Assembly: GCA_964036295.1 (NCBI GenBank)
Contig: OZ038464.1
Location: 1,058,501 to 1,122,500 of the forward strand
Source: Plumapathes pennacea
Lineage: Eukaryota > Cnidaria > Anthozoa > Antipatharia > Myriopathidae
Reading direction: 5' to 3'
DNA length: 64,000 bases
Part shown: piece by piece, positions 1 through 62,622 of the stretch
Layout of the letters: the number at the start of each line of letters is the position of its first letter
How positions within the stretch are numbered: the first letter of the stretch is position 1
The notes under the pieces: generated by a model
What the model saw: the letters and a program-made list of their open reading frames with translations, nothing else
The model's database searches: none
Told to the model about the DNA's origin: nothing
Translations under genes and position numbers: made by a program

Positions 1-1263
1 AGACCTGGCTTTGTGTTTGTTCAAGCTGTCATGAAACAGGTGAGTATTGTCTCTGAAAAAAGGATCATGACGCGTCATCAAACAGAGTTGATGTTTTTAA
101 GCTAACGGTTTGAGAAATTAAAGTTCTTCAGTAAACTGGGAGAGTAGGAATAGATAAAGGGAGAATACTTTAGGAGAATAAGATATCAACTAATTCTGTA
201 AATTATTGTTTGCGACCTGATGCTATATTCTGCTAAGCTAGACGATGCATCCGCGTTATTCCCATTTCGTTATATTCAATCGAGAGATTCCTTTTTTCTG
301 GGCTAATATCGTCAGCGCATACTTTTAAACCAAAAGATATGGATTCATTTTTGTTACCCACATCAAATGCTGTCCTAGAATGTTGTTAAAATACTTTTAG
401 GAAAATCGAAAAAAAGATCAGGAATATCCCATAAATATAACACCCTTTAGGACTTGTAAATATTTAATCGTATCCTCCACCGCCGGCTTCCACTAGTCCT
501 TTTCGTTGTGTGTCTCTCTCTTTCTTTATTTGATTTGTTAAATCTTAGTCTTGAGTAGTCAAATTTCATCTTTTGTCAAAGCAAAACAGCCCTTGTAAAA
601 TTAAAAGATTTCGTATTTTTGCAGCACAACAGTTGCTTCGACCACTGGAAAGATGGCGCGCGGATCTCTGGAGTGTTTCGCATCCAGGAAGACAGTAACA
701 ACCCTTTTGACGTGTACTGCGACTTCGGTTCCGAGTCCAGATGGGTCTGGACCCTAGTTATGTCCCAAAGCCACAAAAACAGAGCGATGACAGAGTTCAA
801 ATCAACGCCGTTTTATACAAACGCGCCGGTGAACGAAGAAAATCCGAACTGGGAGGCTTACAGACTCTCATTCGAGAAGATGAAATATCTGAAGTCCCAG
901 TCCACTCACTGGCGCGTCACCTGCAGTTTTCCCGCGCACGGCGTGGACTACACTGATTACGCGCGAGCCAAGCTCACAGAGTTCGACCCTCTGAGTTTTC
1001 GGGGAGGGAATGTTTGTAAAAAAGTCGAACACATGAATGTGCGAGGGCACAGCTGCACAGGATGTACGAGTAATTGGTGGCAGAAATCTTCTAATTATTT
1101 TCTTTGTCACGACAGCTCTTTTAACAGTTGTGAGTTTGGAAGCACCGCTGGACATGTGTCCAGTGAAGACAACTTCGGGTTTTACCGCACCACAAACCCC
1201 AAGTTCCGTTGCTCCAGCAGCGACGATTCCAGCACAAATCACTGGTTTGGAAGACGCGTGTGA
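1..1263 (+). CDS. Locus 1: PAN/Apple + fibrinogen-like secreted protein, 5'-partial
   Basis: Only the last 13 codons of exon 1 (1-39, ending VMKQ) are in the window. The donor GTGAGT starts at 40. The 585-bp intron ends in TTTTTGCAG, and exon 2 runs 625-1263 in phase 0 (212 residues, stop TGA). Exon 2 opens with HNSCFDHW, shorter than the THKSC or PHKSC opening of most siblings and shared with locus 10. The fibrinogen-like signature is present (VYCDFG, then WVWTL), but the usual ETGW reads ESRW. An extra cysteine occurs in FLCHDSS, again shared only with locus 10. The intron is of the same lineage as those of loci 4 and 10, so this locus belongs to that subfamily and its exon 1 probably starts with the MLTHRTK-type signal peptide (inference). 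No frameshift or internal stop is seen. Confidence 0.85.
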
Positions 1264-3180
1264 GGAGCCGAGGCGGCGGATATTGCTCAAGAAACTCTGT
1301 TACAGCTGAGCATTTTATTAAAAACAGAAGTTTTCAAAAAAGCAGAAACCACGAACTCCTGTAATCAACTGCAATATGCACTGTTTTAACAACACAGTCA
1401 AATGAAACCTAAGAATTTATCACTCGGCATTTGTCGCACTTTTCAGTGAAATTAAATAGTTGAAGGTTTTAAGCTTTTTTCTTTTTTCCTTTTTTCTTAA
1501 CCAGCCTACTGTATAAATTACTGTAAATATTTCACTAGTGACGTCACTGAACGTCTTTGCGTTATGTCAAAAGCGTGATATCACGGCCGATTGTAAAACT
1601 GAGGGAGTTTTCACATAGTTAATAAAAATTGCTTCAAAACTCGGTGTAAAAGCACCGGAAAACGAGTCTTTACTTACCGCTTAAAGTGAGTTTCGAGGCA
1701 ACCCGGCACCACACTGCTGTGCTCTTATCTGACGTCACGGCCTCACGACACATTGGGCATTTACCTCTTTTAACCCAAGCCCCATGGGAAAACTCGTCCC
1801 TGTGTCCACAGATAACCCAATCGATGGGGTCTCGGGCGAGTGTTTGACGTTATAAGAGTTGGAACGGGAATGTTTATACACGAATAATGCATCAAATATT
1901 GAAATAAAATGAACGAAACTTACCTAGTGTGTTTACCTGCGCATATTACAAACTCCCACGTAAAACGGAAGGATTGGCCTGCGTCACTTGAATTGCCAAG
2001 GTGACGCTCACACTTTAAGATTAAATTTTTACCAGCTCACACCCAAGCGTCTCGAGAGACACTTCGGCGCAACCATTCAGAAGAAAATGTGCGAGTGACG
2101 AATTAAAGTGATTGTGGATAAAAGCCTGTTTTCCACGCGTGGAGACCAAGTGGCAAGAGATATGCGTCAGAAGCACGAGGAAAAGGATTGTTTTATTTCT
2201 GCTCACGATTGTGTCGAGTCTGATTTCAATCTCTACATTTTTTGCCGCCAAAAGGCCGAGAGAAAAGATTTCTGTGGTTAATCCTGGGTTAGCTTAATCG
2301 ATCTTTGAACAACACGGCACGACAGATGTATTGCTTCAGCGAGCAAGATTAAACAAATAAAAATTGTAAAGGTAAACATATATCGGAGCACAAAGAACCC
2401 ACTCATTGAAAGCAAGCCAAGAACTGATGATTACGAATGCCAAATGTTTGTCTGTTCTATAAGACTGGAACCGACTCCCCAGTGTACTAAGCCCGGTCAA
2501 GTAAAATGTATTTGGCGCCCTATCTACTATATTGACGCGTACCAGTGCAGCATAGTCGAGCGTTTCGTGTGATTCTACCGGGACTTATAAATTAGAGCCC
2601 ACATAATTTTCTTTTTGCAACCTGGGGCCAATTCAATAAAGCATTTACAAGTGTATTTTACAAGTTGGACTAATTCCTCTGCATGTTAAAACAGACTTTA
2701 GTCCAATATCATGGCCAAAAACTGTTACAGTTATGCAGGTGAGACCGGTATCTGTAATGTTTTGCAGACCTTTGCTTGATCATTTAGTGATCTTTGAATA
2801 ATGGTCCAACTTGTAAAATACACGTGTAAATATTTATTGAATTGGTCCCTGCGTTTCCGATAAGGCTCCGGTCGCACTCGTAACTTTAACGACATTACTA
2901 TCGACATTTGCATCATTTGTAGCGCAAACAGCGCTTGTCACCAGACATATATGTCGGCAAGTTGCTACCAAACATTAAAGAAGCCGTCATACTGCTCTCA
3001 ATGATGAGTTATTGTCGGCTAAACTTCCTAGTGCGACCGGGTCCTAATTTACAACTCGTGCACGCAATTTTCAAGTATATTATTCATTTCTGCTCTTATT
3101 TTGGGAAGCGACTTTTCGCCAAAGGAAGCAATTTACAAAAAAGTGATCCAACTAACATTTCATATTTAATCATAATTATT

Positions 3181-3463
3181 TATTTTGACTTCGTCGGCGT
3201 TGAGAAAGTAGTGTATAATGAATCGACTAAGGGCCGATGTGTAAAAAAGAGTTTGAAGCGGACGTTTGGAGTGCTAGCCACTAGCTGGCACAAGAGTCAT
3301 TATGTTATTTCGAACTGAGAGTCAATGACCATTATCGCGATTTCGTCGCAATATGTAATTGCTCTCGAGGTTCTTTCAAGAATCAACTGTATTGCCTACA
3401 GGCTTTATGCCGTTTGAATTATTAATTCGCATAAACAAATATAACAGAGCTGCAGCGAAATAG
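3181..3463 (+). pseudogene. Decayed coding-like segment of unknown protein (copy 1 of 5)
   Basis: Reading + strand frames, pieces such as YNESTKGRCVK, NDHYRDFVAI and MPFELLIRINKYN recur in all five copies (here, 7816-8128, 18785-19090, 33964-34276, 60690-60967), but each copy has different frameshifts or stops. In four of the five the segment ends at an in-frame TAG after AAAK or a close variant. The pattern suggests a once-coding exon carried passively inside the intergenic module. I do not recognise the protein family. An alternative is that it is part of an old transposable element. Confidence 0.35.
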
Positions 3464-5206: not shown

Positions 5207-6496
5207 ATGTCGTACAATCGCGCAAAACTATTGGTTTTTCTCCTCCTCACCTCGTTGCCATTTTCGTTCCAACAATCTTGCGGTTTTTTCAGCGGTGTTA
5301 AGGTTCACAACTACGCGCTGCTTGGTTACAGCTTCGACTCCATCAACACAGGAGATTCGCTTTCTTGTGCTCATCGCTGTTTGTCTCACGACCTGTGCAA
5401 GTCCTACAACTACGCCCTGTCCGGAGCACAGCAAGGTTTGTGTGAACTCAACAGTGCGGGGAGGGACGCTTCAAAGCCTCTCCAGTACAGACCTGGCTTT
5501 GTGTTTGTCGGAGCAGTCCCGAAACAGGTGAGTAGCGTCTCTGAAATATGATCGAAAAAATGAAGACAAATTTCGAAATTCACTCGACCCATTTTGTCAA
5601 AAGAATGAATATTTTTAGCCTGAAGTTTTATATTTCGTTACGAACATCAAACGCCATATTATCTTGAGAGCGCTGTTAGAAAGGATTTTGAAAAATCAGC
5701 TCAGCAATATCGCAAAGTAAAATTACTACCCTTTAAGTGTTGTTAATAATTAATAGTATACTTCCATGCCTTTTCAACTAAGGGCTCTTATAGACCTTGC
5801 TTGCCTTAGAAATGACAATGAACCTTTTTCTTTTTTTTTTTTTTTTTTCAGAAAAACACCCACAAGAGTTGTTTCGACCACTGGAAAGATGGAGCGCGGA
5901 TCTCTGGAACGTTTCGCATCCAGGAAGACAGTAACAACCCTTTTGACGTGTACTGCGACTTCGGCTCAGAGACCGGTTGGGTCTGGACATTAGTCATGTC
6001 CCAAAGCCACAAAAACAGAGCGATGTCAGAGTTCAGATCAACGCCGTTTTCCACAAACTCTCCGGTGGACGCAGAAAATCCGAACTGGGAGGCTTACAGA
6101 CTCTCACTCGAGAACATGAAACATCTGAAGTCCCAGTCCACTCACTGGCGCGCCACCTGCAGTTTTCCCGCGCACGGCGTGGACTACACAGACTACGTGC
6201 GAGCCAAGTTCACAGAGTTCGACCCTCTGACTTTTCGAGGATGGAAAGTTTGTAAGAAAGTCGAACGCATGAATGTGCGAGGGCACAAGTGTACAGGATG
6301 TACGAGTGTTTGGTGGCAGAAGTCTAATATTTCTCTTCACCACGACAGCTTCAAGAACTGGTGTGAATTTGGAAGAACCACTGGATCTGTGGTCAATGAA
6401 GACAACTTCGGGTTTTACTCGATCACAAACCCCGAGTTCCGATGCTCAAGCAGCAACAGTTCCAACACAAATCACTGGTTTGGAAGACGCGCGTGA
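5207..6496 (+). CDS. Locus 2: secreted PAN/Apple + fibrinogen-like protein, complete
   Basis: Exon 1 is 5207-5527 (107 codons) and exon 2 is 5852-6496 (214 residues plus TGA), joined in phase 0 across a 324-bp intron (CAG|GTGAGT, TTTTCAG|AAA). Residues 1-21 form a signal peptide (RAKLLVFLLLTSLPFSF). Residues 25-101 form a PAN/Apple-like domain with cysteines at 25, 54, 58, 64 and 79 (pattern CAHRC, C-KSYNY, LCELN). Exon 2 starts with C114-FDHW and shows the N-terminal fibrinogen-domain signature ISGTFRI, VYCDFG (C142) and GWVWTL. The C-terminal half is divergent: CTGCTSVWWQ, then CEFG, FRCSSS and terminal NHWFGRRA. PAN and FReD modules usually bind proteins or glycans, so an extracellular recognition or matrix role is plausible but not shown. 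From memory, coral proteins named skeletal organic matrix protein 5-like have a similar outline; this needs checking. Confidence 0.9.
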
Positions 6497-8196
6497 GAAA
6501 GCTCAAAGAACTGTTTTGGAGATTTTAGTTTCAGCTAAGGCTATTTAAAACCTTGTGTAGATTTCTCGTATAAAAGAGTAGCACCAGTTTGTTTGTTGTA
6601 AATAATGGAACGATTCCCGAGGAAAGGGAAGTGGGGTTGGAGGGGGGCATTTTTATTGTTTTCCAGAGCGATCCTCTGTACCTCAATGTTTATCTTGAAG
6701 ACGTCAACACCAAGCACCACCCATATATACCCCAAACCCCCTTCCCTCCAAAAAAAAAAAAAAAAAAAAAAAAAGACAATGAAACAGTGGAGGTACTTTT
6801 AGCTGTTAGTCTAATACGGAAAATGTAAAATGATTTCTTTTTTGTTATTATTTTGACTTTGTGAACACAAGAAGAGATAAAGTGAAGCAGGTAGATCTCC
6901 ATAAAACTGTGTAAGCATCAAGTTGTGTTGTTGGTTTTGCTATATGCCAGTCTGCGCCTGCGCATATTGCAAACTCCCACCCAAAACGGGAGGATTGGCC
7001 TGCGTTACTTGAATTGCTAAGATGACGATGCGAAAATTAGCTGGGCTCACACTTTTAAGATTAAACTTTTACCAGCTCACACCCAAGTGTCTCGAGAGAC
7101 ACTTCTTCTAACCATTCAGAAGGAAGAATGTGCGAGTGACGAAATTAAAGTGATTGTGGGATTAAAGCCTGTTTTCCACGCATGGAGACCAAGTGGCAAG
7201 AGATATGCGTCAGAAGCACGAGGAAAAGGAATTTTTTATTTCTGCTCACGATTGTGTCGAGTCTGATTTCAATCTCTACATTTTTTGCCGCCAAAAGGCC
7301 GAGAGAAAAGATTTCCATAGTTAATCCTGGGTTAGTTTAATCGATCTTTGAACAACACGGCACGACAGATGTATTGCTCCAGCGAGCAAGATTTACAATT
7401 AAAATTGTAAAGGTAAACATATAGCGGAGCACAAACAACCCACTCATTCAAAGCAAGCCAAGAACTGATGATTACCAATCACAAATGTTTGTGTGTTATA
7501 TAAGACTGGAACCGGCTCCCAAGTGTACTAAGCCCGGTCAAGTAAAATGTATTTGGCGCCCTATCTACTATATTGACCCGTACCAGACAGTGCAGCATAG
7601 TCGAGCGTTTGGTGTGATTCTACCGGAACTTATAAATTAGAGCCCACATAATTTTCTTTTTGCAACCTGCGTTTCCAATAATTGACAATTCGTGCACGCA
7701 ATTTTCAAGTATATCATTTATCTTCTGTTCTTATTTTGGGAAGCGGCTTTTCGCCAAAGGAAGCAATTCACAAAAAAGTGATCTAACTGCCATTTCATAT
7801 CTATTATATATTATTTATTTTGACTTCGTCGGCGTTAAGAAAGTCGTGTATAATGAATCGACTAGGAGTCGATGTGTAAAACCCATACGCCGTAAAAAGT
7901 TTGAAGCTGACGTTATGAGTGCTTGCCACTCGTCGGCACAAGAGTCAATATGACATAAAGGTATTAATGGCTTTCGAACTGAGAGTCAAAGACCGTTATC
8001 GCGATTTCGTTGCAATATTTAATAGCTCTCAAAGGTTCTTTCAAGAATCAACTGTATTGCCTACAGGCTTTGTGCCATTTGAATTATTAATTCGCATAAA
8101 CAAATATAACAGAGCTGCAGCGAAATAGTGTAGGAAATTATGTGCAGCTATAACAGTGCAATCATTATAAGAATTTTGTGGCCATTGAGTTACAGT
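6497..8196. other. 3' flank of locus 2 and partial intergenic module gamma
   Basis: The first ~420 bp form the 3' flank, including an A-tract at 6750-6774, a conserved stretch ending CCATAAAACTGTGTAAGC and a GT-rich run, as expected around a polyadenylation site. From about 6930 the sequence is module gamma, including its decayed coding-like segment at 7816-8128. The module stops abruptly after GTTACAGTCAT at about 8196, where the Penelope-like element begins. Confidence 0.55.
7816..8128 (+). pseudogene. Decayed coding-like segment (copy 2 of 5)
   Basis: This is the same segment as at 3181-3463, ending in KYNRAAAK and a TAG. Here ACGTTTGGAG has become ACGTTATGAG, and small indels split the reading into two overlapping frames (7660-7953 and 7919-8128). 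It is almost identical to the copy at 33964-34276 because both lie in duplication alpha. Confidence 0.35.
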
Positions 8197-8197
8197 C

Positions 8198-9397
8198 ATG
8201 AAAAAAGGCGTCATGGAGTTACTAACTCTATGCTTGACTTCCACGTACTTCCAGTACAACGGAAAACACTACCGACAACTACACGGGACAGCAATGGGTT
8301 CACCGGTCTCCGTTATTGTAGCAGAAATTGTGATGCAACACATCGAAGAACGCGCCCTTGCAACCTACGAACAAACGCTGCCTATTTGGCTACGATACGT
8401 TGACGACACGTTTACTGCTGTACACAAAGACGACATTGACTCCTTCCACAAACACCTGAACGACCAAAACCCTGACATACAGTTCACTAAGGAAATCGAA
8501 GACAACGGAAAACTTCCGTTCTTAGATTGCCTCGTGAGCCACGACAACGACAGGCTACGAACAACAGTCTACAGAAAACCAACGCACACTGACAGACTAC
8601 TTGACCAGACTTCTTACAACCCTACTTCACACAAGGCTACCACGATCAAAACGCTGACGAAACGAGCGCAACTACTTTGTGACTCTCCCGACGACTTACT
8701 TAACGAGACCCGACACCTGGAACGCGTTTTCCAGAAGAACGACTACGACCCTAACTTTGTCAAACGCAACATTCACAAGAACACCGCACCCAACGAGACA
8801 ACCGACAACGAAACCACTGACGACACAACTCCATTGACCTTGGCCACACTACCGTACATCAGAGGCACCTCTGAGACGATAGCACGTATTCTACGACCCT
8901 ACAACATCCGGGTAGCCCACAAACCCATCACGACTATACGCGACTTACTGATCAACGTAAAGGACAAAGACGAACCCATCAACAGACAGGGAATAGTATA
9001 CAGAATATCTTGTACTGACTGCAAAGCCACCTACATCGGTGAAACTGGCATAAACCTGAACACGAGACTTACTGAACACAAACGAGCTACCAGAAACGGC
9101 GACATCAGAAATCACATTTCTGAACACCACCGACAGACTAAACACGACATCAACTGGGACTCTGCTGAATGCATCAGCCACAGTACCAACTACTACCAAC
9201 GACTTACACTGGAAAGCTGGTACACAAACTTAGAACGGAAACCTCTCAACAGATGCCAACAATTACCGGCACCTTACAAACGACTGATAGATGACATCAA
9301 ACGCAACCGAACGAACAATAGACTAATCAACAGGACAAAAGAACATCAACTGACATTAACAACATCAACACTACCAAGCCGACTCGACCAACCATAG
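8198..9397 (+). CDS. Penelope-like reverse transcriptase (C-terminal part) with GIY-YIG endonuclease
   Basis: The open frame of 399 residues starts inside the reverse transcriptase domain. HGTAMGSPVS lies at residues 29-38, and the catalytic box RYVDDTF is at 66-72 with both aspartates. LPFLDCLV and VYRKPTHTD follow. The C-terminal GIY-YIG nuclease shows IVYRISC (266-272), a C-x2-C pair, TYIGETG (278-284), Arg290, His294 and LTLESW with a candidate catalytic Glu339. This order is diagnostic of endonuclease-bearing Penelope-like elements, which use the nuclease and reverse transcriptase for insertion. The first ATG is not the native start, since the 5' part of the gene is absent. The frame has no internal stop, so the copy is fairly young, but it is unlikely to be autonomous. 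Confidence 0.85.
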   Translation: MKKGVMELLTLCLTSTYFQYNGKHYRQLHGTAMGSPVSVIVAEIVMQHIEERALATYEQTLPIWLRYVDDTFTAVHKDDIDSFHKHLNDQNPDIQFTKEIEDNGKLPFLDCLVSHDNDRLRTTVYRKPTHTDRLLDQTSYNPTSHKATTIKTLTKRAQLLCDSPDDLLNETRHLERVFQKNDYDPNFVKRNIHKNTAPNETTDNETTDDTTPLTLATLPYIRGTSETIARILRPYNIRVAHKPITTIRDLLINVKDKDEPINRQGIVYRISCTDCKATYIGETGINLNTRLTEHKRATRNGDIRNHISEHHRQTKHDINWDSAECISHSTNYYQRLTLESWYTNLERKPLNRCQQLPAPYKRLIDDIKRNRTNNRLINRTKEHQLTLTTSTLPSRLDQP

Positions 9398-9473
9398 GGC
9401 GACATAACGGACCAATCACTTCTACGACCAGAGACATATATACCGCCATCTGACGAATACTTTTCACTTGACT

Positions 9474-9508
9474 CTGAAGACGACTTCCGCTCAGGTAGTC
9501 GAAACGTC
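9474..9508 (+). ncRNA. Hammerhead-ribozyme-like motif in Penelope 3' region
   Basis: CTGAAGA (9474-9480) fits the core CUGANGA. It is followed by one extra C, a stem pairing GACTTCC (9482-9488) with GGTAGTC (9494-9500; one T-T mismatch, loop GCTCA), then GAAAC and GTC (9506-9508). Hammerhead motifs are reported for Penelope-like elements. The extra C and the mismatch suggest a degenerate or weak ribozyme. Confidence 0.35.
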
Positions 9509-10981
9509 AGTCACCAACAACAGTCTTTCTGGAGACTACTCTAACCCGGACGATCACAACCAACCTACTGTTCACACTCCTGGGTTCAAACCATTTGCCA
9601 TAGTACAGTAATTGCAACAAAATGTTTTATCGTTCTATTTCTATCACGAGCAGTCGAAACAAGAATAAGTTCTGACATTTAATTGACCGTCAACAACAAA
9701 GCACATATTCGTTTGACTACAGTTGTTCTCGTTTACAAAATAGAACCACGCTTAATAATATCATTATAATCTCTTTTTCTTTTCTCCACCTCTCTCCACT
9801 CGGGTAATATATTGCTGCAAGTTTAATTGATTCATAAAAATTGAGACTGCTGCAATATTCACTCGGTCGTTTTGAGTTAGTCTGCAGCGGTAAATAATTT
9901 GCTTCAAATACGTGTCTTTGGCGTATAATTTGTGAGAAAATTCTACTTAATAGGGCTTGATAACATATCACGTCAACGTATCGAGCAAAATAATTCTTAC
10001 CTTCAATTCTCCCGATTCTTAGAAGAGCCCCTCCTAATGCATCGCAAGCAGTCCTATGAAGTAAATACACAAAAACAAGTTTTCTCAGCTGCGTAAGTTG
10101 TCAAAGGAATGTAACAAACAATAAACAAGTGCTCTGCTGTACCGAGTGTCACTTCATTCCGCCATCTTGAATTTCCCACAAAGCAGCACGCGCTGGACTA
10201 GTCCCAGGTTCTGCTCCGCCAAGTGAGAAGATTGACAAAACTGCGACCATTATCCACCACTCGCGAAGGTCACAACTTAAGATTTTGTTTGACAGTCCAG
10301 GAGTTGGAAGTGAACACTGCTATTATGTATTAGAATGAACTCACTGAGCTCATAATCTAATTGTTAATTATGCACAGTCCCCTCTTGCGTCGTCCTATTA
10401 AGAAGAATTTGAAGTCGCACGCGAGAGCACGGCGACCCTGAGAACATGTCAATTTCAGATATTCACGTGCTTCTTTTGTCTTCTGATTAGTGTTATTGTT
10501 TCACCGACGTTGCCGTCGTGCTATCGCGTTTTATCTTAAAGTCTCTAACTTTGAAAATTTCTTTTCCCATTGATTCATTCCTGCAATAGTGGAGACATCA
10601 AACATTTCCGCATTGCAAATAAAGCAGTGACGAACAGAAGGACATCCGGGCAAAATCACATCTCAAATGAAGTAGACAAGAACATCCAATTCATTCATAT
10701 CTTGCTGTACTGGTTGCCATGCGGACCAGTTTTTTTCATATTAAAATTAAAATTACAACCAACACAAACAGGCGCCGCCGAGGTTTGGAGGCAACATTTG
10801 TCAACTACTTCTTTCCAATGCATTAAAAAGTCTGCCATGGTCTCGGAGGTTTTCCTCGGGATAAAGAATTTCAGGAGCGAGCCGCAAAGAAAACATCTGG
10901 GACCAAGATATAACTAAAAGATCAGTATTATAACAGACGGTTTGTATATTTTTACACGAAAGTGGCTTTGATTCCTCTTAC

Positions 10982-11129
10982 CATGCTGAACCCAATTAAT
11001 TCTGGATATCTGGTCCAATGCAGCTATCTCTCGTCCATCCACAAATCCAGCTAGGAAAGCAAAAGCCGTAACAGCAACGCGAAATAAAGTTCTCATCCAA
11101 ATTATTCCAGTGCAACGCATCCCATCCAC
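10982..11129 (-). CDS. Candidate first exon of an unidentified minus-strand secreted protein
   Basis: Reading the minus strand from 11129, the frame contains MRTLFRVAVTAFAFLAGFVD, a good signal peptide (its own ATG is at 11096), then GREIAALDQISRIN. It reaches CAGCATG followed by a consensus donor GTAAGAGG at 10981. A paralogous copy at 37120-37267 has the same frame and donor with only a few substitutions (DGREI to DGRER, INW to INR). I could not identify a phase-compatible next exon within the block, so the gene may be incomplete or the exon spurious. The family is not recognised. Confidence 0.35.
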
Positions 11130-11170
11130 TGGTGTAATAACGGCTTTGACAAGTAATTGCTGTCACCCAG

Positions 11171-11193
11171 GGGGGGGGGGGGGGGGGGGGGGG
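11171..11193. repeat. Poly-G tract
   Basis: An uninterrupted G run of about 23 bases lies upstream (in minus-strand sense) of the candidate signal-peptide exon. The paralogous run at 37311-37334 is of similar length. Such runs can form G-quadruplexes and are length-unstable. Confidence 0.8.
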
Positions 11194-12659
11194 CATGTCG
11201 GCGTGGGAACTTCCTGTCTGTGACCTTTTCTGGGGTTAATTCAGCGATAACTGTCATCTGCGGTGTTTAGCGAAGGAAGTTTTCTTTCCGTCCCTCTCCG
11301 TGACGCTTTGTTTATGTAAAGTACCGAAGCAACACGAGAAATTCTTCTGTTCACCTGGGTGTCGCTGTGGGAAGCAGAATGCGCGTTGAACTCTGAAAAT
11401 AGACAAGGATAATGAAGGCGATTTCGATTAAACAAAATAAGGAGGAAAAAAAATGGAAAACCAGCTCTAAAGAGAACTAGATAGACAATGTCGGCGTGGA
11501 GAAATATGTATAACGTGGATCGACTAACGGTCGATGTGTGAAAGCTGGACGCCGTGAAACAATTTGAAGCTAGTTTTTCTAGCGCTAGCCTTCGTCTGAG
11601 CAAACAAACTAACAAAAAAAATTAAGTAAGGGTGGGGATGCTCGTCGTACTTCTTAGGGGACAAATTGGTATCGGTTTAATACGATGCAGAAAATCAAAC
11701 GCTGGAGTTTTTGTGTTCGTCAAAATCGATCTTTTACGCCACCAGACAGCACCAGACATTTAATAATGTCATACAATTTTGTACCTTTTACTGGCGGGCC
11801 AAAAAAAAAACTCGAATTTCGTTTGATATACTCCCAGAATTATTGCTAGAAATTGAATCGAGACGTCATCACGACTCCAACAAATATATGTTAAATTGCA
11901 TTGAGAGTCACCAGTCCTACTTAGTAAACCACAGTTTAATTTTCACTCTAATTGTCGTGACACGACACGACACGACACGACACACAAAATCAGGAGAAGT
12001 GGGCACAAAAACACTGGTACGGATTAAACTTGAAAGTCTTGTATTAAGAACGAATCCACGTGGACAACAGCAAAACTTAAATTTATAATAAATCCACCAG
12101 ATAACAGCTGCAACAATTCACATCCTAAAATTGTGGCCATTGATCAATTTTTATTCAATGAACAAAATTGAGTTTAATATTTAATGATAACAACGATCAA
12201 AATCAAATTTTTCCTTTCAAGTTTAAGCAGGGAAGAGATGTTTACTCGTAACAAAACTTGTAATTAACACAATTCGTTTCATAAGTTTGTATGTCCGAGT
12301 CTTTTAATAAAAATAAGGTTGTAATTCACAACAGTCGTCTCTGTGACGCATCCTTTATCCCGGGGGAAGCAACCAAAGGAATTTTGTGCAGGGAAACTCC
12401 GCCTAGAGATTAACCACCTTACAAATAAATTCCTATCAATAACGATCAATCGATATACCTCCAGTAAAACGTGCTCCTTTTGTATAACTTTAAGGGCAAA
12501 TAATAGAAAGAGCGAAACAAAAGTATGTAGCAGTGTGCAACGCGATGCTACATGAGATGGATGGAGCAACTGACTTGTCATCCATATGTATAAAAAACTT
12601 GTCCTTTGAGCGGAGCTGGTTGAGTTCCCCAGAACAATCCATTGTAAAGACACAACATT

Positions 12660-12910
12660 CCCCCCCCCCCCCCCCCTCCCCCTCCCCCTCCCCCTCCAGG
12701 GCCATATAGCGACTTTCAAAACTCAAGAGCAGAAAATATTAAGTGGCAAAAAATATTCTAAAGGAAACAATTTTAAATGTTTTTAAGAAATATAGACCTC
12801 CTTCGGACTATTGCGACGAAGCCATTCATTTTGTTTAACAAAAGCACATAAAAGAGAAAAGACGTATAGAAAGTAGCATTAGAAGACAATCTCGTATTTC
12901 ATTGTCAATA
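12660..12910 (+). promoter_or_regulatory. C-tract and putative promoter region of locus 3
   Basis: A run of about 17 C followed by a CCCCCTC repeat lies ~240 bp before the start codon. A TATA-like CATAAAAG at 12847-12854 lies 64 bp before it. The same arrangement precedes locus 9 (C run near 38830, CATAAAAG near 39018) and the orphan exons at 15354 and 41510. A degraded version precedes locus 8. Function is inferred from this conservation only. Confidence 0.35.
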
Positions 12911-14281
12911 ATGGATTGGCGAACAAACCTTGTTTCTCTCCTACTCTTCTCGCTGCCTTTTTCGTTGCAAGATTCCTCCAGAGAAATGTGCGGTGCATCA
13001 ATGCAGGACTATGCATTGCTTGGTTACAGCTTCGCTTCCTTCAACACAGGGAATTCGTTTTCTTGTGCTCACCGATGTTTGTCTCACGACCAGTGCAAGT
13101 CCTACAACTACGCCCTGTCCGGAGCACAGCAAGGTTTGTGTGAACTCAACAGTGTGGGGAGGGACGCTTCAAAACCTCTCCAGTACAGACCTGGCTTTGT
13201 GTTTGTTCAAGCTGTCATGAAACAGGTGAGTAGTGTCTCTGAAATAGGAAAATGACGAGTCATCAAAATAGGGATGATGATATTTTTTTAAACTAAGAAT
13301 CTATTAAAGGTTTGAGAAATTAAAGTTCTTTAGCAAACTCGGAGAGTAGCAATAGGAGAAAGAGATAAATATATAAATAGGAGAATACTCATAAAAATGA
13401 TTTTATAAAATATTGTTTCCCAAATGAAGCCACAATCTGTAATCCACTCTGCAGATTTTCTAGATGTTAGGTAATTAATCATATACTTCCACGCCTCTTC
13501 CGCCAGTCCTTTACGTTGTATCTCTCTTTCTCCTTCGTATTTGATCAGTTTATTCTCAGTCTTTTTTCGTTTAATTTCATCTTTTGTCTAAGCAAAAATT
13601 TTTTTCATGAATTTTTTTTTTTTTTTTTTGCAGCAAAACCCGCACAAGAGTTGCTTCGACCACTGGAAAGATGGCGCGCGGATTTCTGGAACGCTTCGCA
13701 TCCAGGAAGACAGTAACAACCCTTTTGACGTGTACTGCGACTTCGGCTCAGAGACCGGTTGGGTCTGGACCCTAGTCATGTCCCAAAGCCACAAAAACAG
13801 AGCGATGACAGAGTTCAGATCAACGCCATTTTTCACAAACTCTCCGGTGGACGAAGAAAATCCGAACTGGGAGGCGTACAGACTCTCGCTCGAGAAGATG
13901 AAACAGCTGAAGTCCCAGTCCACTCACTGGCGCGTCACCTGCAGTTTTCCCGCGCACGGCGTGGACTACACAGATTACGTGCGAGCCAACTTCACAGAGT
14001 TCAATCTACTGACTTTTGACAAAGAGAAGGTTTGCAAGAAAGTCGAACTCATGAACGTGCGAGGGCACAGCTGCACAGGATGTACGAGTGCTTGGTGGCA
14101 GAAATCTTCTGTATGGCTTCTTCATCACGACAGCGGTTTCCACATCTGTGAATTTGGGCGCACCGCTGGACATGTGTCCAGTGAAGACAACTTCGGGTTT
14201 TACGGCTCCACAAACCCCAAGTTCCGTTGTTCCAGCAGCGACGATTCGAACACAAATCACTGGTTTGGAAGACGCGTGTGA
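12911..14281 (+). CDS. Locus 3: secreted PAN/Apple + fibrinogen-like protein (MDWRTN subfamily), complete
   Basis: Exon 1 is 12911-13225 (105 codons). I chose the ATG giving MDWRTNLVSLLLFSLPFSL, a clean signal peptide, over the upstream non-ATG frame extension. Exon 2 is 13634-14281 (215 residues), after a 408-bp intron with CAG|GTGAGT and TTTTTTGCAG. The PAN-like part differs from locus 2 at its N-terminus (SSREMCGASMQDYALLGYSF) but is nearly identical from CKSYNYALSG onward. Exon 2 opens QNPHKSCFDHW. Its variable cassettes are FDKEKVCKKVE, WWQKSSVWLLHHDSGFHICEFG and FGFYGSTNPKF. All eight common FReD-region cysteines are present. Product 320 residues, predicted secreted. Confidence 0.9.
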
Positions 14282-15353: not shown

Positions 15354-15530
15354 ATGGAGTGGCCAACAAACCTGATTTCTCTTCTACTCTTCCCGCTGCT
15401 TTTTTCGATGCATAATTCCTCCAGAGAAATGTGCGGTGCATCAATGCAGGACCACGCCTTGCTTGGCTACAGCTTCGCTTCCTTCAACACAAAGAATTCT
15501 TCTTCTTGTGCTCATCAAATATTGTCATAA
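15354..15530 (+). pseudogene. Orphan truncated exon 1 (MEWPTN type), copy 1
   Basis: The frame encodes a signal peptide (MEWPTNLISLLLFPLLFS) and the first ~30 residues of a PAN-like domain up to SSSCAHQILS, then TAA. At CATCAAATATTGTCATAAG it leaves the exon homology and joins sequence like the 5' flank of locus 6. It therefore lacks the core PAN cysteines and exon 2. It sits 83 bp upstream of the locus 4 ATG. An identical breakpoint exists in 41510-41686, so the deletion predates duplication alpha. Confidence 0.75.
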
Positions 15531-15613
15531 GTTGGACCAGTTGAGTTGCTAAAGTGACCTACTTGACGAGTTAAACAACGCAAGCAACGCTATTTCACAT
15601 CTCGTTGTTCAAC

Positions 15614-34344: not shown

Positions 34345-34345
34345 C

Positions 34346-41686: not shown

Positions 41687-41769
41687 GTTGGACCAGTTGA
41701 GTTGCTAAAGTGACCTACTTGACGAGTTAAACAACGCAAGCAACGCTATTTCACATCTCGTTGTTCAAC

Positions 41770-47252: not shown

Positions 47253-48552
47253 ATGTTGCCACATCGAACAAAATTAGTTTTTCTCCTTCTCACTTCGCTG
47301 CCATTTTCGCTCCAACAATCTTGCGATTTTTTCAGCGGTGTGAAGGTACACAACTACGCGCTGCTTGGTTACAGCTTCGACTCCACTAACACAGGAGATT
47401 CGTTTTCTTGTGGTCATCGATGTTTGTCTCACGACCAGTGCAAGTCCTACAACTACGCCCTGTCCGGAGCACAGCAAGGTTTGTGTGAACTCAACAGTGC
47501 GGGGAGGGACGCTTCAAAACCTCTCCACTACAGACCTGGCTTTGTGTTTGTCGGAGCGGTCCCGAAACAGGTGAGTAGCGTCTCTGAAATAAGACCAAAA
47601 AAATGAAAAAAATTCCGAAATTCACTCGACTCATTTTGTCAAAAGAATATTTACAACCTGAAGTTCTTGATTTCGTTACGAACATCAAACGCCATCTTAT
47701 CTTGAGAGTGCTGAACGGCTTTTAAAAATTCAGCTCAGCAATATCGCAAAGTACTACCCTTGAAGTATTTTAAATAATTAATAGTATACTTCCAAGCCTT
47801 TTCAAAGGGCTCTTACAAACCTTGCTTACCTTTAGAAATGAGAATGAAACTTCCTTTTTTTTTGTTTTTTGTTTTTTGTTTTTTTGTTTTTTTGTTTTTT
47901 TTTTTTTTAGAAAAACACCCACAAGAGTTGCTTCAACCACTGGAAAGATGGAGCGCGGATCTCTGGAACGTTTCGCATCCAGGAAGACAGTAACAACCCT
48001 TTTGACGTGTACTGCGACTTCGGCTCCGAATCCGGATGGGTCTGGACATTGGTCATGTCCCAAAGCCACAAAAACAGAGCGATGTCAGAGTTCAGATCAG
48101 CGCCGTTTTTTGCAAACGCGCCGGTGGACGCAGAAAATCTGAACTGGGAGGCTTACAGACTCTCACTCGAGAACATGGAACATCTGAAGTCCCAGTCCAC
48201 TCACTGGCGCGTCACCTGCAGTTTTCCCGCGCACGGCGTGGACTACACAGATTACGTGCGAGCCAAGTTCACAGAATTCGATCCTCTCACTTTTATGGGA
48301 GAAAACTCTTGCAAGAAAGTTGAATATATAAATGTGCGAGGCCACAACTGTTCTAGATGTACGAGCAATTGGTGGCAGATACCAGAGCTTCTTCATCACG
48401 ACAGCTCTTATAACAGTTGTGAGTTTGGAAGAACCCCTGGACATGTGTCAGGTGAAGACAACTTCGGGGCGTACATAAGCACAAACCCCGCGTTCCGATG
48501 CTCCAGCAGCGACAATTCCAGCACAAATCACTGGTTTGGAAGACGCGTCTGA
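47253..48552 (+). CDS. Locus 11: secreted PAN/Apple + fibrinogen-like protein, complete
   Basis: Exon 1 is 47253-47570 (106 codons, MLPHRTKLVF) and exon 2 is 47911-48552 (213 residues), with a 340-bp intron. The acceptor is TTTTTTTTAG behind a T-tract broken by single Gs, unlike the CAG acceptors of siblings. Exon 2 starts with CFNHW instead of CFDHW. Its cassettes are the most distinct in the array: FMGENSCKKVEYIN, HNCSRCTSNWWQIPELLHHDSS (two residues shorter), RTPGHVSGEDNFGAYISTNPAF. In the PAN-like part SCAHRC reads SCGHRC and LQYRPGF reads LHYRPGF. The frame is open throughout. Confidence 0.88.
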
Positions 48553-51122: not shown

Positions 51123-51771
51123 ATGTCGCCAAACCGCGCAAAATTACTTTATCTCCTCCTTATTTCGTTGCCATTTTCGCTCCAACAATCTTGCGAGTCT
51201 TTCGGCGGTGTGGAGGTACAAGACTACGCTATGCTTGGTTACAGCTTCGACTCAACCAACACAGAAGATTCGTATTCTTGTGCTCATCGATGTTTGTCTC
51301 ACGACCAGTGCAAGTCCTACAACTACGCCCTATCCGGAGCACAGCAAGGTTTGTGTGAACTCAACAGTGCGGAAAGGGACGCTTCTAAACCTCTCCAGTA
51401 CAGACCTGGCTTTGTGTTTGTCGGAGATGTCATGAAACAGGTGAGTAGCGTCTTTGAAATAAGACCGAAAAAATGAAGACAAATTCTGAAATTCACTCGA
51501 CCCATTTTGTCAAAAGAATGAATATTTTCAACCTGAAGTTTTATATTTCGTTACGAACATCAAACGCCATTTTATCTTAAGAGCGCTGTTAGAAAGGATT
51601 TTGAAAAATCAGCTCAGCAATATCGCAAAGTAAAATTACTACCCTTTAAGTGTTGTTAATAATTAATAGTATACTTCCATGCCTTTTCAAATAAGGGCTC
51701 TTACAGACCTTGCTTCCCTTAGAAATGAGAATGAAACCTTTTTCTTTTTTCTTTCTTTCTTTCTTTCTTTT

Positions 51772-51802: not shown

Positions 51803-52456
51803 CTTTTTCAGAAAAGCACCCACAAGAGTTGCTTCGACCACTGGAAAGGTGGCGCGCGGATCTCTGGAACGTTTCGCATCCAGGAAGACAGTAACAACCC
51901 TTTTGACGTGTACTGCGACTTCGGCTCAGAGACCGGATGGGTCTGGACCCTAGTCATGTCCCAAAGCCACAAAAACAGAGCGATGACAGAGTTCAGATCA
52001 ACGCTGTTTTTCACAAACGCGCCGGTGGACAAAGAAAATCCGAACTGGGAGGCTTACAGACTCTCACTCAAGAACATGGAACATCTGAAGTCCCAGTCCA
52101 CTCACTGGCGCGTCACCTGCAGTTTTTCCGCGCACGGTGTGGACTACACAGATTACGTGCGAGCCAAGTTCACAGAATTCGACCCTCTGAGTTTTGAAGG
52201 AGTTGGAGTTTGTAAGAAAGTCGAACGCATGAATATGCGAGGGCACAAGTGTACAGGATGTACGAGTGCTTGGTGGCAGAAGTCTAATATGTTTCTTCAC
52301 CACGACAGCTCTTATAACAGTTGTGAGTTTGGTATCACCGCTGGACATGTGTCCAGTGAAGACAACTTCGGGTTTTACCGCAACACAAACCCCAAGTTCC
52401 GTTGTTCCAACAGCGACGATTCCAGCACAAATCACTGGTTTGGAAGACGCGTGTGA
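51123..52456 (+). CDS. Locus 12: secreted PAN/Apple + fibrinogen-like protein, complete
   Basis: Exon 1 is 51123-51440 (106 codons, MSPNRAKLLYLLLISLPFS) and exon 2 is 51812-52456 (214 residues), with a 371-bp intron and a long T-tract acceptor. The 5' part of exon 2 (KSTHKSCFDHWKGG, FEGVGVCKKVERMN, WWQKSNMFLHHDSS) is nearly identical to locus 7. The end (SSYNSCEFGITAGHVSSEDNFGFYRNTNPKF) is like locus 10, and so is the 3' flank. It is thus a recombinant of those types. In the PAN-like part the usual GRDASKP reads ERDASKP. Confidence 0.9.
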
Positions 52457-53371: not shown

Positions 53372-53607
53372 ATCCCATGAATGTTCGAGGGCACAGGTGT
53401 ACAGGATGTACGTGCGCTTGGTGGCAGAAGTCTCATGTGTTCCTTCACCACGACAGCTTCGAGAACGGGTGTGAATTTGGAAGCACCACTGGATCTGTGA
53501 ACACTGAAGACAACTTTGGGTTTTACTCGGCCACAAACACAAAGTTCCGTTGTTCCAGCAGCGACAATTCCAACACAAATCACTGGTTTGGAAAACGCAC
53601 TCTTTAA
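53372..53607 (+). pseudogene. 3' fragment of exon 2, open but lacking its 5' part
   Basis: The frame from 53377 encodes MNVRGHRCTGCTCAWWQKSH, then HHDSFENGCEFG, FGFYSATNTKF and NHWFGKRTL-stop. It corresponds to the last third of locus 6 exon 2 and has no mutations that break the frame. Upstream it joins a dispersed repeat at AACAAGGATCCC. No acceptor, PAN exon or signal peptide precedes it nearby, so it is a fragment left by the beta duplication breakpoint. Confidence 0.8.
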
Positions 53608-57324: not shown

Positions 57325-59127
57325 ATGTCGCCAAACCGAGCAAAATTTGTTTTCCTCCTCCTCATCTCGTTGCCATTTTCGCTCCAGCAATCTTGCGAAT
57401 CTTTCAGCGGTCTGAAGGTGCACGACTACGCGCTGCTTGGCTACAGTTTCGACTCAACCAACACAGAAGATTCGTATTCTTGTGCTCATCGATGTTTGTA
57501 TCACGACCAGTGCAAGTCCTACAACTACGCCCTGTCCGGAGCACAGCAAGGTTTGTGTGAACTCAACAGTGCGGGGAGGGACGCTTTAAAACCTCTCCAG
57601 TACAGACCTGGCTTTGTGTTTGTTCAAGTTGTCATGAAACAGGTGAGTCGTGAATTGTGGTCGGAATATAATGCCGTTTTAGCCAAATTTAGTCGCATTT
57701 CTATATGAATACAATGACAATATTTGGAGAAGATATAAAATTTGAGTCAGAGATTTTCTGTTTAAATTTCTGCTTGTAGAAAGTAGATTTCATGGGTGTT
57801 TTCTTTTATCCGTAAATAATTAATGATAGTCTTCCCTTTTCTGATTCTGTTGCATTTCCGTGAAACGTTTCTACTTTTAGTTCTCCTTTCTGCTCTGTAT
57901 TCTCAGAAAATGCCCTGCCAGTCAAGTGAACCAACACCCTCTGAGATAATTGTTCAGGAGACGCCGACCAAGACAATTTCTGAGGCATCGCCATCCAACA
58001 TAATTTCTCAGACAACACCACCCAACACTGAGCCCTCTCAGACAGTTCTTCACCACAAATCGACCAAGACAATTCCTGAGGCATCGCCATCCAACACAAT
58101 TCCTCAGACAACACCACCCAACACTGAGCCCTCCCAGACAATTCTTCACCACAAATCGACCAAGACAATTCCTGAGGCATCGCCATCCAACACAATTCCT
58201 CAGACAACACCACCCAACACTGAGCCCTCCCAGACAATTCTTCACCACAAATCAACCAAGACAATTCCTGTGGCATCGCCATCCAACACAATTCCTCAGA
58301 CAACACCACCCAACACTGAGCCCTCTCAGACAATTCTTCACCACAAATCGACCAAGACAATTCCTGAGGCATCGCCATCCAACACAATTCCTCAGACAAC
58401 ACCACCCAACACTGAGCCCTCTCAGACAATTCTTCACCACAAATCGACCAAGACAATTCCTGTGGCATCGCCATCCAACACAATTCCTCAGACAACACCA
58501 CCCAACACTGAGCCCTCTCAGACAATTCTTCACCACAAATCGACCAAGACAATTCCTGTGGCATCGCCATCCAACACAATTCCTCAGACAACACCACCCA
58601 ACACTGAGCCCTCTCAGACAGTTCTTCACCACAAATCGACCAAGACAATTCCTGAGGCATCGCCATCCAACACAATTCCTCAGACAACACCACCCAACAC
58701 TGAGCCCTCTCAGACAATTCTTCACGACAAATCGACCAAGACAATTCCTGAGGCATCGCCATCCAACACAATTCCTCAGACAACACCACCCAACACTGAG
58801 CCCTCTCAGACAATTCTTCACGACAAATCAACCAAGACAATTCCTGAGGCATCGCCATCCAACACAACTCCTCAGACAACACCACCCAACACTGAGCCCT
58901 CTCAGACAATTCTTCACGACAAACCGACCAAGACAATTCCTGAGACATCGCCATCCAACACAACTCCTCAGACAACACCACACAACACTGAGCCCTCTCA
59001 GACAATTCTTCAGAAGGCCTCGTCTACCACTCTTCGTCAACTAACGCCATCCAGAACCGTCTTTCCAGCCACGTCATCCTTGACCATTTCTCCTGTGGCT
59101 TCATTCAGCAGTTCATTCGATCACTGA
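57325..59127 (+). CDS. Locus 13: PAN/Apple + mucin-like Thr/Pro/Ser repeat protein
   Basis: Exon 1 (57325-57642, 106 codons, MSPNRAKFVFLLLISLPFS) is a normal family exon with two unusual residues (CLYHDQC, DALKPLQ). The donor is GTGAGT, but the intron (264 bp) is unlike any other in the array. The next exon starts at 57907 after TATTCTCAG, in phase 0 (KMPCQSSEPTPSE). It encodes 11 tandem copies of a 32-residue unit (96 bp; 57964-59019) of the form STKTIPEASPSNTIPQTTPP plus NTEPSQTILHHK. A tail (SSTTLRQLTPSRTVF...) ends in SSFDH-TGA at 59127. The predicted protein of 512 residues is secreted, with one PAN-like domain and a region rich in potential O-glycosylation sites. The repeat exon replaces the FReD-like exon; the stop falls where family members have FDHW. 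Confidence 0.8.
57964..59019 (+). repeat. 96-bp tandem repeat (11 units) inside locus 13
   Basis: Eleven in-frame units differ at few positions: E or V after TIP, HHK or HDK at the end, I or T before PQTT. The first and last units are the most diverged, the usual pattern for repeats expanded by unequal exchange. The unit length is a multiple of three, so copy-number change keeps the frame. Confidence 0.95.
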
Positions 59128-59391
59128 AAAGATGGTGCAAGAAGTTCTAGAAATTTTAGCATCCACGCGGAAAGCAACAAGTCCTTTGACGTGCACTGCG
59201 ACTTTGGTTCCGAGAGGAACCTTCAGAGTTCAGAAGAACGCCATTTTATACAAACGAACCGGTGAGCGAAGAAAATCCGAGCTGGAGGCTTACAGGTTCT
59301 CACTCGAGAACATGAAACATCTGAAGTCCCAGTCCACTCACTGGCGCGTCACCTGCAGTTTTCCCGCGCAAGGCGTGGACTACACAGATTA
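59113..59391 (+). pseudogene. Exon 2 (FReD-like) relic fused to the repeat exon of locus 13
   Basis: After AGTTCATTCGATCACTGA, which corresponds to SCFDHW with Trp changed to a stop, the text continues KDGARSS, SNKSFDVHCDFGSE, then jumps across a deletion to LEAYRFSLENMKHLKSQSTH and VTCSFPAQGVDYTD. A frameshift separates the two parts. At about 59390 it joins another repeat-unit fragment through the shared text AGACAACACC. Confidence 0.75.
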
Positions 59392-60689: not shown

Positions 60690-60967
60690 TTTTGACTTTG
60701 CATAATGAATCGACTAAGGGCCGATGTGTAAAAGCCAGACGCCGTGTAAAAGAGTTTGAAGATGACGTTTGGAGTGCTAACCACTCGCTGGCACAAGAGT
60801 CATTATGTCATTTCAAACTGAGAGTCAATGACCATTATCGCAATTTCGTCGCAATATTTAACAGCTCTCGAAGGCTCTTTTAAGAATAAACTGTATTGCC
60901 TACAGGCTTTATGCCATTTGAATTATTAATTCGCATAAAAAAAATATAACAGAGGTGCAGAGAAATA
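60690..60967 (+). pseudogene. Decayed coding-like segment (copy 5 of 5)
   Basis: This copy has the longest uninterrupted frame over the middle part (NESTKGRCVKARRRVKEF, then SANHSLAQESLCHF and NDHYRNFVAIFNSSRR), before a TAA. It supports the idea that the segment was once coding. Confidence 0.35.
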
Positions 60968-62277
60968 GTATAGAAAATTATGTGCAGCTATAACAGTGCA
61001 ATCATTATAAGAATTTTGTGGCCATTGAGTTACAGACACCACTGAGTAACATAGCCACACAAAAGTTTTAGGTGCGGATCCAACATTAATTTTGTATGTA
61101 ATTACCTCAATGACTTCCTCTGTTTCGATTTACATGAAACTGAAAAAGTTAAAATAGAACTAAATGATTCACACTACTGAAAAACTTTATATATATTCTT
61201 ACACTTCGGTACATAAATGAGGCAATGAATATGATGTATTAAACATCTGTTTACAGCCAAATAACTATCTGGAACACAAAATCAATTGATCGTCAAGCAG
61301 TCAAGAAACCACCGAAACGTTGCTATGGTTACTTCTTAAATTAACCTGATGTTTATCTCTCGAGTAATCTCAAGTTTTAGTTTTAACTTTTAGTTTCAAC
61401 ATTTTCCATTAGTCAAATTTGTTTATGCAGAACTCAGACTAAAAGGTATTTTACAATTATACTGATGTAAACCTAAAAATTGGTGTTATTATTATGACTG
61501 TTATTATGATTAAAGTAATGTCAAGATGGGAACACAAAACCGAAAGCCATGCAAAAAAAAAATTAACAACGACAATCAAACACCGACGGCCAGGGTATTT
61601 TTTCCGTCTTAGTATGGCCACGTATCGCCTTTAGGAAAAGATCACGAAATTTGATGCCAGCTCATACTTGCGTGGTGTCATATTTCACCCCTACCCTCTC
61701 TTCCCCCACCTCCCCATAACGTCTGCCTCAGTACAACGGAGAGTAAGCTTTGTCTCTAGGTATCCGTTTTAGAGAGGTTCGACTGTAACTGAACAATATC
61801 TCGTGTGTTTTGTTTTCTGAGTGATTAAGCTTAGACTCATTAAACAAAGAATACAAACTATTAACTCGAAGACCAGCCAAGAAAAATAATTACTATCGCA
61901 AACGTTGAAAAATAAAACTATCAACCTGATATAAAAAATATCAGAAATGTCTATCCAAACACATTTGCAAACACTGCACTCAGTGAGCACATAATAAATT
62001 TGGCCGCTATATTTACTTGTTTTATCCTTCTGTTAAAAACATCGGATCTCACTTAGAAAACAATTAGTACAATCTATAAACGTGTTTGAAAACACCAAAC
62101 GTATTATTGACCAATACTTATATACAGCCAATCATACCGCCTTCTGTAGTGCCAAATTAAATTATTATCGGAGCCACCCACAAATTTTCAAATGACAGAG
62201 CCCATAACTTTCTAAAGTCAGTTATAGAAAGTTTAAACTGACTAACTGAGAGGCTACTTCACAACTCGTTCCTCAAC

Positions 62278-62622
62278 ATGTCGCCAAACCGAGCAAAACT
62301 ATTGGTTTTTCTCCTCCTCACCTCTTTGCCATTTTCGCTCCAACAAGCTTGCGAGTCTTTCAGCGGTCTGAAGGTACACGACTACGCGTTGCTTGGCTAC
62401 AGTTTCGACTCTACCAACACAGAAGATTCGTTTTCTTGTGCTCAACGATGTTTGTCTCACGACCAGTGTAAGTCCTACAACTACGCCCTGTCCGGAGCAC
62501 AGCAAGGTTTGTGTGAACTCAACAGTGTGGGGAGGGACGCTTCAAAACCTCTCCAGTACAGACCTGGCTTTAACACGTTTCAAAACGAAGTGGCATATTT
62601 CAAAATGGGTAATTTTTGGTAA
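62278..62622 (+). pseudogene. Locus 14: truncated PAN/Apple exon without fibrinogen-like exon
   Basis: The start (MSPNRAKLLVFLLLTSLPFS) and the PAN-like domain up to LQYRPGF are intact, with SCAQRC for SCAHRC and QQACESF for QQSCESF. After CCTGGCTTT at about 62572 the family sequence stops and unrelated sequence adds NTFQNEVAYFKMGNFW before TAA. The normal donor and exon 2 are absent from the rest of the window. The frame is open for 114 residues with a signal peptide, so a secreted single-domain protein is conceivable. A truncated gene at the array edge is the simpler reading. Confidence 0.8.

Follow-up and report, generated by a model that had tools for sequence, protein, structure and literature searches.

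Exchange and cassette variation in a tandem array of PAN and fibrinogen-like genes from the antipatharian Plumapathes pennacea

A 64,000-nucleotide stretch of the Plumapathes pennacea genome (contig OZ038464.1; G000:C3:1058501-1122500, here called the window) contains fourteen PAN/FReD-like loci on the + strand, each with exon 1 and/or exon 2. How did copies that share so much of their sequence come to differ at a few short sites in exon 2, and what could those differences be for? The first part has a firm answer: the array has diversified by block duplication and by exchange between copies, which has joined different fronts of exon 2 to different backs. For the second part, we see an even chance, judging from sequence features, that the array would be a germline tandem set of secreted PAN plus FReD-like proteins serving as a diversified binding repertoire. 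Copies are named T1-T14 by their order in the window, and the assembly searched for relatives comprises 290 Mb in 24 contigs.

Cassette combinations and exchange between copies

An earlier note on this DNA described fourteen same-orientation loci of two exons, with differences gathered at four short sites of exon 2. Both descriptions hold, as the loci share a splice pattern, with both exons intact in 10 of 14, and the four sites are all among the most variable windows of exon 2. Further variable columns lie at 176-178 and 182-183. The cassette set used in the codon counts comprises 19 codons, those of the four sites together with columns 176 and 178. In T10, the cassettes are placed as follows:

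43044..43055, + strand: cassette HV1, residues 126-129, RGGN
43128..43145, + strand: cassette HV2, residues 154-159, after WWQ
43161..43172, + strand: cassette HV3, residues 165-168, SYNS
43185..43193, + strand: cassette HV4, residues 173-175
43230..43247, + strand: cassette HV5, residues 188-193, HNTNPK

Twelve copies have an open exon 2, eleven in the window plus T15, which lies to its right. The exon 2 of T4 and all fragments are excluded from every exon-2 codon count, while T13 and T14, without a usable exon 2, enter no distance count. T7 is included for exon 2 and excluded from the exon-1 distances, which cover T2, T3, T4, T5, T6 and T8-T12, T1 being excluded. T15 is left out of the clustering, flank, distance, duplicated-block and linked non-coding comparisons, and T1 out of the flank comparison.

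The five cassettes occur in 8, 10, 8, 9 and 12 distinct forms, respectively, and the 12 open copies carry 12 distinct combinations. The same cassettes do recur in different company, as had been proposed: EGVG is found with FKNW, SFIK and SYNS, and SYNS with DGYE, RGGN, MGEN and EGVG. Variable columns are clustered in the 11 open window copies (lag-autocorrelation p=0.0009; the densest 7-column window taken alone gives p=0.054). Cassette residues likewise vary more than the others across 15 distant relatives (entropy 2.51 vs 1.49, p=2.9e-6). In those sequences an indel is found no more than two residues away from 17 of the 19, a count reached by 1% of circular shifts. Both properties are as expected of loops.

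Recombination breakpoints are well supported in exon 2. The pairwise homoplasy index (PHI) gives p=0.0002 over the whole exon, the minimum possible with 5000 permutations, and p=0.0002-0.0004 for the back half. The approximately unbiased test rejects each half's tree when it is imposed on the other half, the back tree for front data at 4.8e-5 and the front tree for back data at 4.8e-54. Five of six one-switch trios, chosen after inspection of the identity table, are significant mosaics. T12, which the earlier note had read as the front of locus 7 joined to the back of locus 10, is exactly such a case: 67 of 72 informative sites fit a T7/T10 switch at nt 492-506 (codon ~164, p=0.0002), with 98.7-99.1% identity to T7 before the switch and 96.7% to T10 after it. 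The remaining four (p<=0.0004 each) are T2 as T5/T8 at codon 121 (79 of 98 sites), T8 as T3/T2 at codon 114 (66 of 82), T6 as T11/T2 at codon 114 (60 of 80), and T5 as T2/T3 at codon 124 (57 of 82). The switch falls within the conserved central part of exon 2, shortly ahead of the cassettes, in four mosaics (codons ~114-124), and between cassettes 2 and 3 in one (~164).

The flanks travel with the halves. T2 is paired with T5 on the upstream side, where identity is 92-98% over a stretch that starts 2 kb upstream and includes the front of exon 2; on the downstream side it is paired with T8, at 93-98% over the back of exon 2 and the 2 kb that follow. The upstream and downstream partners are T2 and T10 for T5, T4/T10 and T2 for T8, and T11 and T5/T10 for T12. 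Two copies of a 10.7-kb block, 93.5% identical by blastn and identical in 95.9% of ungapped MAFFT columns, lie within the array:

5840..16484, + strand: segmental duplication copy A, alignment starting 12 bases before T2 exon 2
31993..42626, + strand: segmental duplication copy B, alignment starting 12 bases before T8 exon 2

Carried inside the block is an open reading frame (ORF) of Penelope-like type at 8189-9394, with a second copy within 31993-42626. The two are 98.7% identical; the GIY-YIG match is above the Pfam cut-off and the reverse transcriptase match below it. We take this ORF to be a Penelope-like element.

Introns of the array fall into three classes, A, B and C. Those of class A cannot be aligned with those of class B (z 1.0-2.1, four pairs), while class C is partly similar to both (z 9.3 to A and 11.3 to B, one pair each). 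In exon 1, the synonymous distance (dS) between classes A and B falls from 0.76 over the 5′ half to 0.14 over the 3′ half; it stays low, at 0.15-0.22, across exon 2 codons 4-125. Such low exon distances beside unalignable introns indicate that parts of the exons have been homogenised and the introns have not.

The case for exchange has its counter-evidence. PHI is not significant for the front half (p=0.11), the sixth trio, T6 as T7/T2 at codon 162, misses significance (38 of 62 sites, p=0.053), and in a GENECONV-like scan none of 66 pairs is significant after Bonferroni correction (best 0.066). Pure short-tract gene conversion was not adopted, given this last result and the flanks that accompany the half-genes. 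Of the proposal that a recognition or matrix repertoire has been spread by gene conversion, diversification by exchange between copies stands; conversion as the sole route does not, since there is also the 10.7-kb duplication and since half-genes have been swapped together with their flanks.

Linked non-coding DNA and selection on the cassettes

A simple test, repeatable by others, compares the cassettes with the non-coding DNA linked to them. Control pairs share at least 400 bp of homologous DNA directly downstream, and five were found among all pairs of the 11 window copies:

T2/T8: cassette identity 0.85, downstream identity 0.98
T3/T9: cassette identity 0.53, downstream identity 0.91
T5/T10: cassette identity 0.59, downstream identity 0.96
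T5/T12: cassette identity 0.54, downstream identity 0.93
T10/T12: cassette identity 0.70, downstream identity 0.95

Cassette identity is the lower in all five pairs (Fisher 4e-5 to 2e-14), which are not independent because three of them come from T5, T10 and T12. The other back codons differ significantly from the downstream DNA in one of the five. T3 and T9 lie inside the duplicated block, and in this case the cassettes are 0.526 identical, against 0.963 in two intergenic stretches of the block. DNA near these two genes is also more diverged (intron 0.881, downstream 0.915), as are their other back codons (0.921, p=0.005 against the intergenic stretches).

The cassettes outdiverge the surrounding DNA, in our reading, because copies swapped pieces and because the cassettes changed unusually fast. 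Their non-synonymous distance exceeds the synonymous distance of the back codons in all five pairs (0.17-0.49 vs 0.07-0.20). The pooled ratio of non-synonymous to synonymous change (omega, NG86) is 1.42 for the 19 cassette codons (bootstrap 0.97-2.10), a value biased upward because the set was picked for being variable; it is 0.31 in the front, 0.36 in the back without cassettes, and 0.33 outside the cassettes overall. Omega in the cassettes is thus not well below 1, which supports the reading in the earlier note.

Single codons were examined with our own implementation of a FUBAR-like analysis, with separate front and back trees and alignment columns as sites. With kappa fitted, 7 of 213 codons in the 12 copies have P(beta>alpha) above 0.9 (3 of 19 cassette codons and 4 of 194 others). 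With kappa at 2.5 there are 8 of 213, four of them cassette codons (162, 178, 191, 192). Null simulations with beta<=alpha gave 0-3 such codons in 25 runs. The analysis of 16 sequences finds 10 of 212, against 0-3 in 20 null runs: five cassette codons (131, 159, 171, 191, 192), three others of the back (127, 183, 189), and two of the front (20, 59). Purifying selection is confidently called at 34 of 213 codons.

Several points weigh against selection for diversity in the cassettes. The bootstrap interval of omega spans 1, HV3 alone has an omega of 0.70, and just three of the seven codons in the kappa-fitted run belong to cassettes. Each partition of the codon analysis was treated as non-recombining, though the back half recombines. 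In all five control pairs the non-cassette back codons have a synonymous distance larger than the downstream distance by a factor of 1.8-3.5 (3 to 8.5 changes each), from which we conclude that older sequence was imported by recombination and accounts for part of the cassette divergence. Inside the cassettes, where synonymous sites are few, their divergence in some cases matches that of the non-synonymous ones (T10/T12: 0.32 vs 0.29). Pure point mutation under selection was rejected because the back-half synonymous distance is raised too. Beyond the share that comes from imported sequence, diversifying selection is the likely cause of the cassette divergence. Fast change of this kind would be expected of proteins that recognise something variable.

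Domains, known relatives and possible functions

Exon 1 encodes a PAN domain (PF00024), with PAN_1 matching T5 exon 1 at 30.3 bits against a Pfam cut-off of 21.4. The label "fibrinogen-like" given earlier to exon 2 stands for its first ~45 residues and fails for the remaining ~165. A profile of exon 2 aligns with eight canonical FReDs of the same genome over 44 columns (hhalign, probability 95%, E 3.3e-8), and this alignment ends at column 46. PF00147 is matched weakly by 13 of 22 family members (Pfam scan, best E 1.1e-6), while T10 exon 2 has no Pfam match at E<=1. Against PDB sequences the profile has 59 matches at E<=1 (fibrinogen, angiopoietin, tenascin, ficolin, intelectin), starting at profile position 1-2; 43 of these stop by position 50, and the longest reaches 90 of 208. 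The N-terminal segment carries the fibrinogen-type signature C..G...SG.Y.I....F.VYCD...WT, whereas the GAWWY..C...NLNG block of the eight canonical FReDs was not found by eye in the exon 2 family alignment. The remaining ~165 residues have no credible match in Pfam or among PDB sequences, the commonest weak Pfam match otherwise being Hisat_C, seen in 3 of the 22 members with E 0.035 at best. By these profile comparisons, exon 2 is fibrinogen-like over its first ~45 residues only, and the cassettes sit in the rest. Complete FReD membership was consequently rejected for the C-terminal three quarters (hhalign, Pfam and PDB profile matches).

Cysteines 4, 32, 100, 147, 169 and 196 (T10 numbering) are kept in all 22 family members, and cysteines 131 and 144 in 21. 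Both of the latter are absent from the same member, which suggests that a disulphide joins Cys131 and Cys144. Eight cysteines are kept, while cassette codons carry an excess of amino-acid changes. Residue 161 of T10 exon 2 is an additional Cys (43149-43151) that is His in the other 21 members of the 22-member alignment; T1 shares it (1105-1107), and this possibly unpaired Cys could permit dimers. AlphaFold2 models of the 11 window exon-2 copies have a mean pLDDT (predicted local distance difference test) of 30.6, too low to place the cassettes. No exon 2 relatives were found among 24 pattern matches in viral contigs or 9 in prokaryote genomes.

FREPs combine an immunoglobulin domain, their defining feature, with a complete fibrinogen domain. 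The array proteins have PAN instead and are of fibrinogen type over ~45 residues only, and no immunoglobulin domain was found in T5 exon 1 or the joined T5/T12 protein by a Pfam scan in which PAN scored above cut-off. The comparison with FREPs made in the earlier note can be kept as a working principle and not as membership, because exon 2 is not a complete FReD. Snail BgFREPs are likewise secreted, with a fibrinogen-type segment and diversified copies, a diversity for which gene conversion and point mutation are held responsible (PMC12074976). Intelectins resemble exon 2 in having a fibrinogen-type N-terminus followed by a different region (PDB profile matches to XEEL, E 0.0016, and serum lectin, E 0.0011, at positions 1-50, and weakly to intelectin-1, E 0.079, at 1-48); they differ in that the rest of exon 2 has no match. 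Tachylectin-2 of Oculina is an anthozoan lectin whose exposed sites are under positive selection (PMC2880987), which makes it one of the closest known parallels. However, it is a beta-propeller with allelic variation of one gene, whereas the array consists of PAN/FReD-like tandem copies. Among the matches listed in an open-licence literature search, titles and abstract openings describe no hypervariable PAN/FReD-like cluster.

A binding repertoire could have arisen and could operate as follows. Block duplication and inter-copy exchange would supply new front/back combinations of exon 2, in which the cassettes may form ligand-contacting loops on a conserved disulphide scaffold. PAN and the signal peptide would make each product a soluble adhesive molecule, and each copy might bind a different partner, such as a microbe, a symbiont, or a self or gamete surface. 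If the cassettes are binding loops, one locus offers a natural series of some twelve scaffolds that are nearly identical apart from their loops, on which one could test how varied recognition proteins arise in animals that lack antibodies. A bolder version seems doubtful to us: a germline recognition system, possibly for self/non-self or egg-sperm recognition, that would pair a fibrinogen-type N-terminal segment with a separate ~165-aa cysteine-stabilised domain bearing five swappable loop cassettes, diversified by single-exon recombination; hypervariability would be new for this scaffold.

The best-placed alternative, which we hold possible though clearly the lesser prospect, is an egg, yolk or skeletal-matrix family of the USOMP-5 and coral egg-protein group. 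These would be bulk, high-dose proteins whose variation comes from recombination with weak loop constraint, or from gamete-coat evolution. The array family may be linked to USOMP-5. USOMP-5 has 256 aa with a signal peptide (PMC4043741), USOMP-5-like proteins have a segment in common with coral egg proteins (PMC4890752), and a Euphyllia egg protein is annotated as USOMP-5 (PMC7579821). Sponge USOMP-5 homologues have fibrinogen-related subdomains that partly overlap the conserved region (PMC6824150), which fits the fibrinogen-like start of exon 2. By description, the two groups share a signal peptide, a fibrinogen-related subdomain over part of their length and a local conserved region. The array proteins differ in their length (~320 aa), and the cited passages on USOMP-5 and egg-protein-like proteins make no mention of a PAN exon or of hypervariable cassettes. 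A pure storage role does not predict that cassettes outdiverge linked non-coding DNA, while a gamete-coat role fits the data as well as immunity does. Should the link to USOMP-5 hold, a group so far associated with skeletons and eggs would come to be seen as one of fast-evolving recognition proteins.

Ordinary birth-and-death among tandem copies, through unequal crossing-over and relaxed loops with no selection for diversity, we consider unlikely. It would account readily for the 4 broken loci of 14, for the 10.7-kb block duplication and for the raised synonymous distance of the back half. Relaxed loops, however, are capped at the neutral rate, yet cassette non-synonymous distance exceeds back synonymous distance in every control pair; cassette identity is also below downstream identity in each, and the codons with P above 0.9 outnumber those in any of the 45 null simulations. 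A stinging-cell (cnidocyte) component, in which expanded FReD-type proteins would serve as a capsule or secreted effector, is improbable. In its favour, an anemone matrisome study reports that the profile of mature cnidocytes includes several proteins from an expanded FREP family (PMC12549020); their correspondence to the array family is conjectural.

Array layout and neighbouring sequence

In intact copies exon 1 has a signal-peptide-like start (by eye) followed by PAN and ends in AAAC(A/G)(A/G) before a GT(G/T)AG donor, while exon 2 (212-215 aa) follows a (C/T)AG acceptor and a phase-0 intron. T1 is counted as intact because its exon 1 starts 276 bases left of the window. The broken loci are T4 (frameshifted exon 2), T7 (frameshift in exon 1, exon 2 open), T13 (broken exon 2) and T14 (truncated exon 1 alone). 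All features listed are on the + strand:

1..39: T1 exon 1, 3′ end (exon start at G000:C3:1058225, outside the window)
625..1263: T1 exon 2 with stop, FReD-like N-terminus and variable C-terminal region
5207..5527: T2 exon 1, signal-peptide-like start and PAN
5852..6496: T2 exon 2
12911..13225: T3 exon 1
13634..14281: T3 exon 2
15614..15931: T4 exon 1, gene broken further downstream
16484..16633: T4 internal second copy of exon 1, partial
16868..17476: T4 exon 2 with a frameshift, matching the family in two frames
20478..20798: T5 exon 1, PAN_1 E=3.8e-7
21150..21794: T5 exon 2
23890..24207: T6 exon 1
24563..25210: T6 exon 2
28537..28841: T7 exon 1, frameshifted
29218..29862: T7 exon 2, open
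31278..31592: T8 exon 1
32005..32649: T8 exon 2
39082..39396: T9 exon 1
39808..40455: T9 exon 2
41770..42087: T10 exon 1
42669..43307: T10 exon 2, the residue-number reference
47253..47570: T11 exon 1
47911..48552: T11 exon 2
51123..51440: T12 exon 1
51812..52456: T12 exon 2, T7-like up to codon ~164 and T10-like after
53377..53598: exon 2 fragment
57325..57642: T13 exon 1
57820..59124: T13 Thr/Pro-rich repeat ORF leading into the broken exon 2
59110..59389: T13 degenerate exon 2 fragment
62278..62571: T14 exon 1, truncated, no donor pattern found

Rightward, the array extends through T15 (intact exon 2, L039 5435-6079), T16 (L040 2071-2967) and fragments, to an end at ~C3:1136080. Its neighbours are an astacin-like gene on the left and a RING-like ORF on the right, the RING match being below the Pfam cut-off. 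Close dispersed copies (78-82% identity) occur on contigs C9 and C2 and more distant ones on several contigs, with at least 85 matches from 141 candidates in the genome search, array included. PAN-like exons were found at several of the same places as the dispersed exon 2 copies. PAN-like exons also lie near canonical FReD exons at G000:C2:7.27-7.33 Mb, which suggests that the PAN and FReD pairing extends beyond the array family. In many distant relatives (L033-L036, L042-L055) the FReD-like domain is immediately preceded by a segment that looks EGF-like (by eye); a 40-aa piece of L033, taken with frame disregarded, has no Pfam match.

In T16 a Thr/Pro-rich spacer stands in frame ahead of exon 2. 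A 96-bp minisatellite of 10.9 copies at 57965-59012 encodes a Thr/Pro-rich mucin-like spacer, and shorter spacers of this kind continue into exon 2 without a change of frame in L040, L016, L020 and L024. These in-frame spacers indicate one subfamily composed of PAN, a mucin-like stalk and a FReD-like region. Old exon-1-like (48-52% identity) and exon-2-like relics lie beside T4, T10, T5 and T12 (15372-15527, 41528-41683, 22068-22235, 43583-43750 and 52731-52898), and a 38-bp minisatellite of 7.9 copies occupies 62851-63150.

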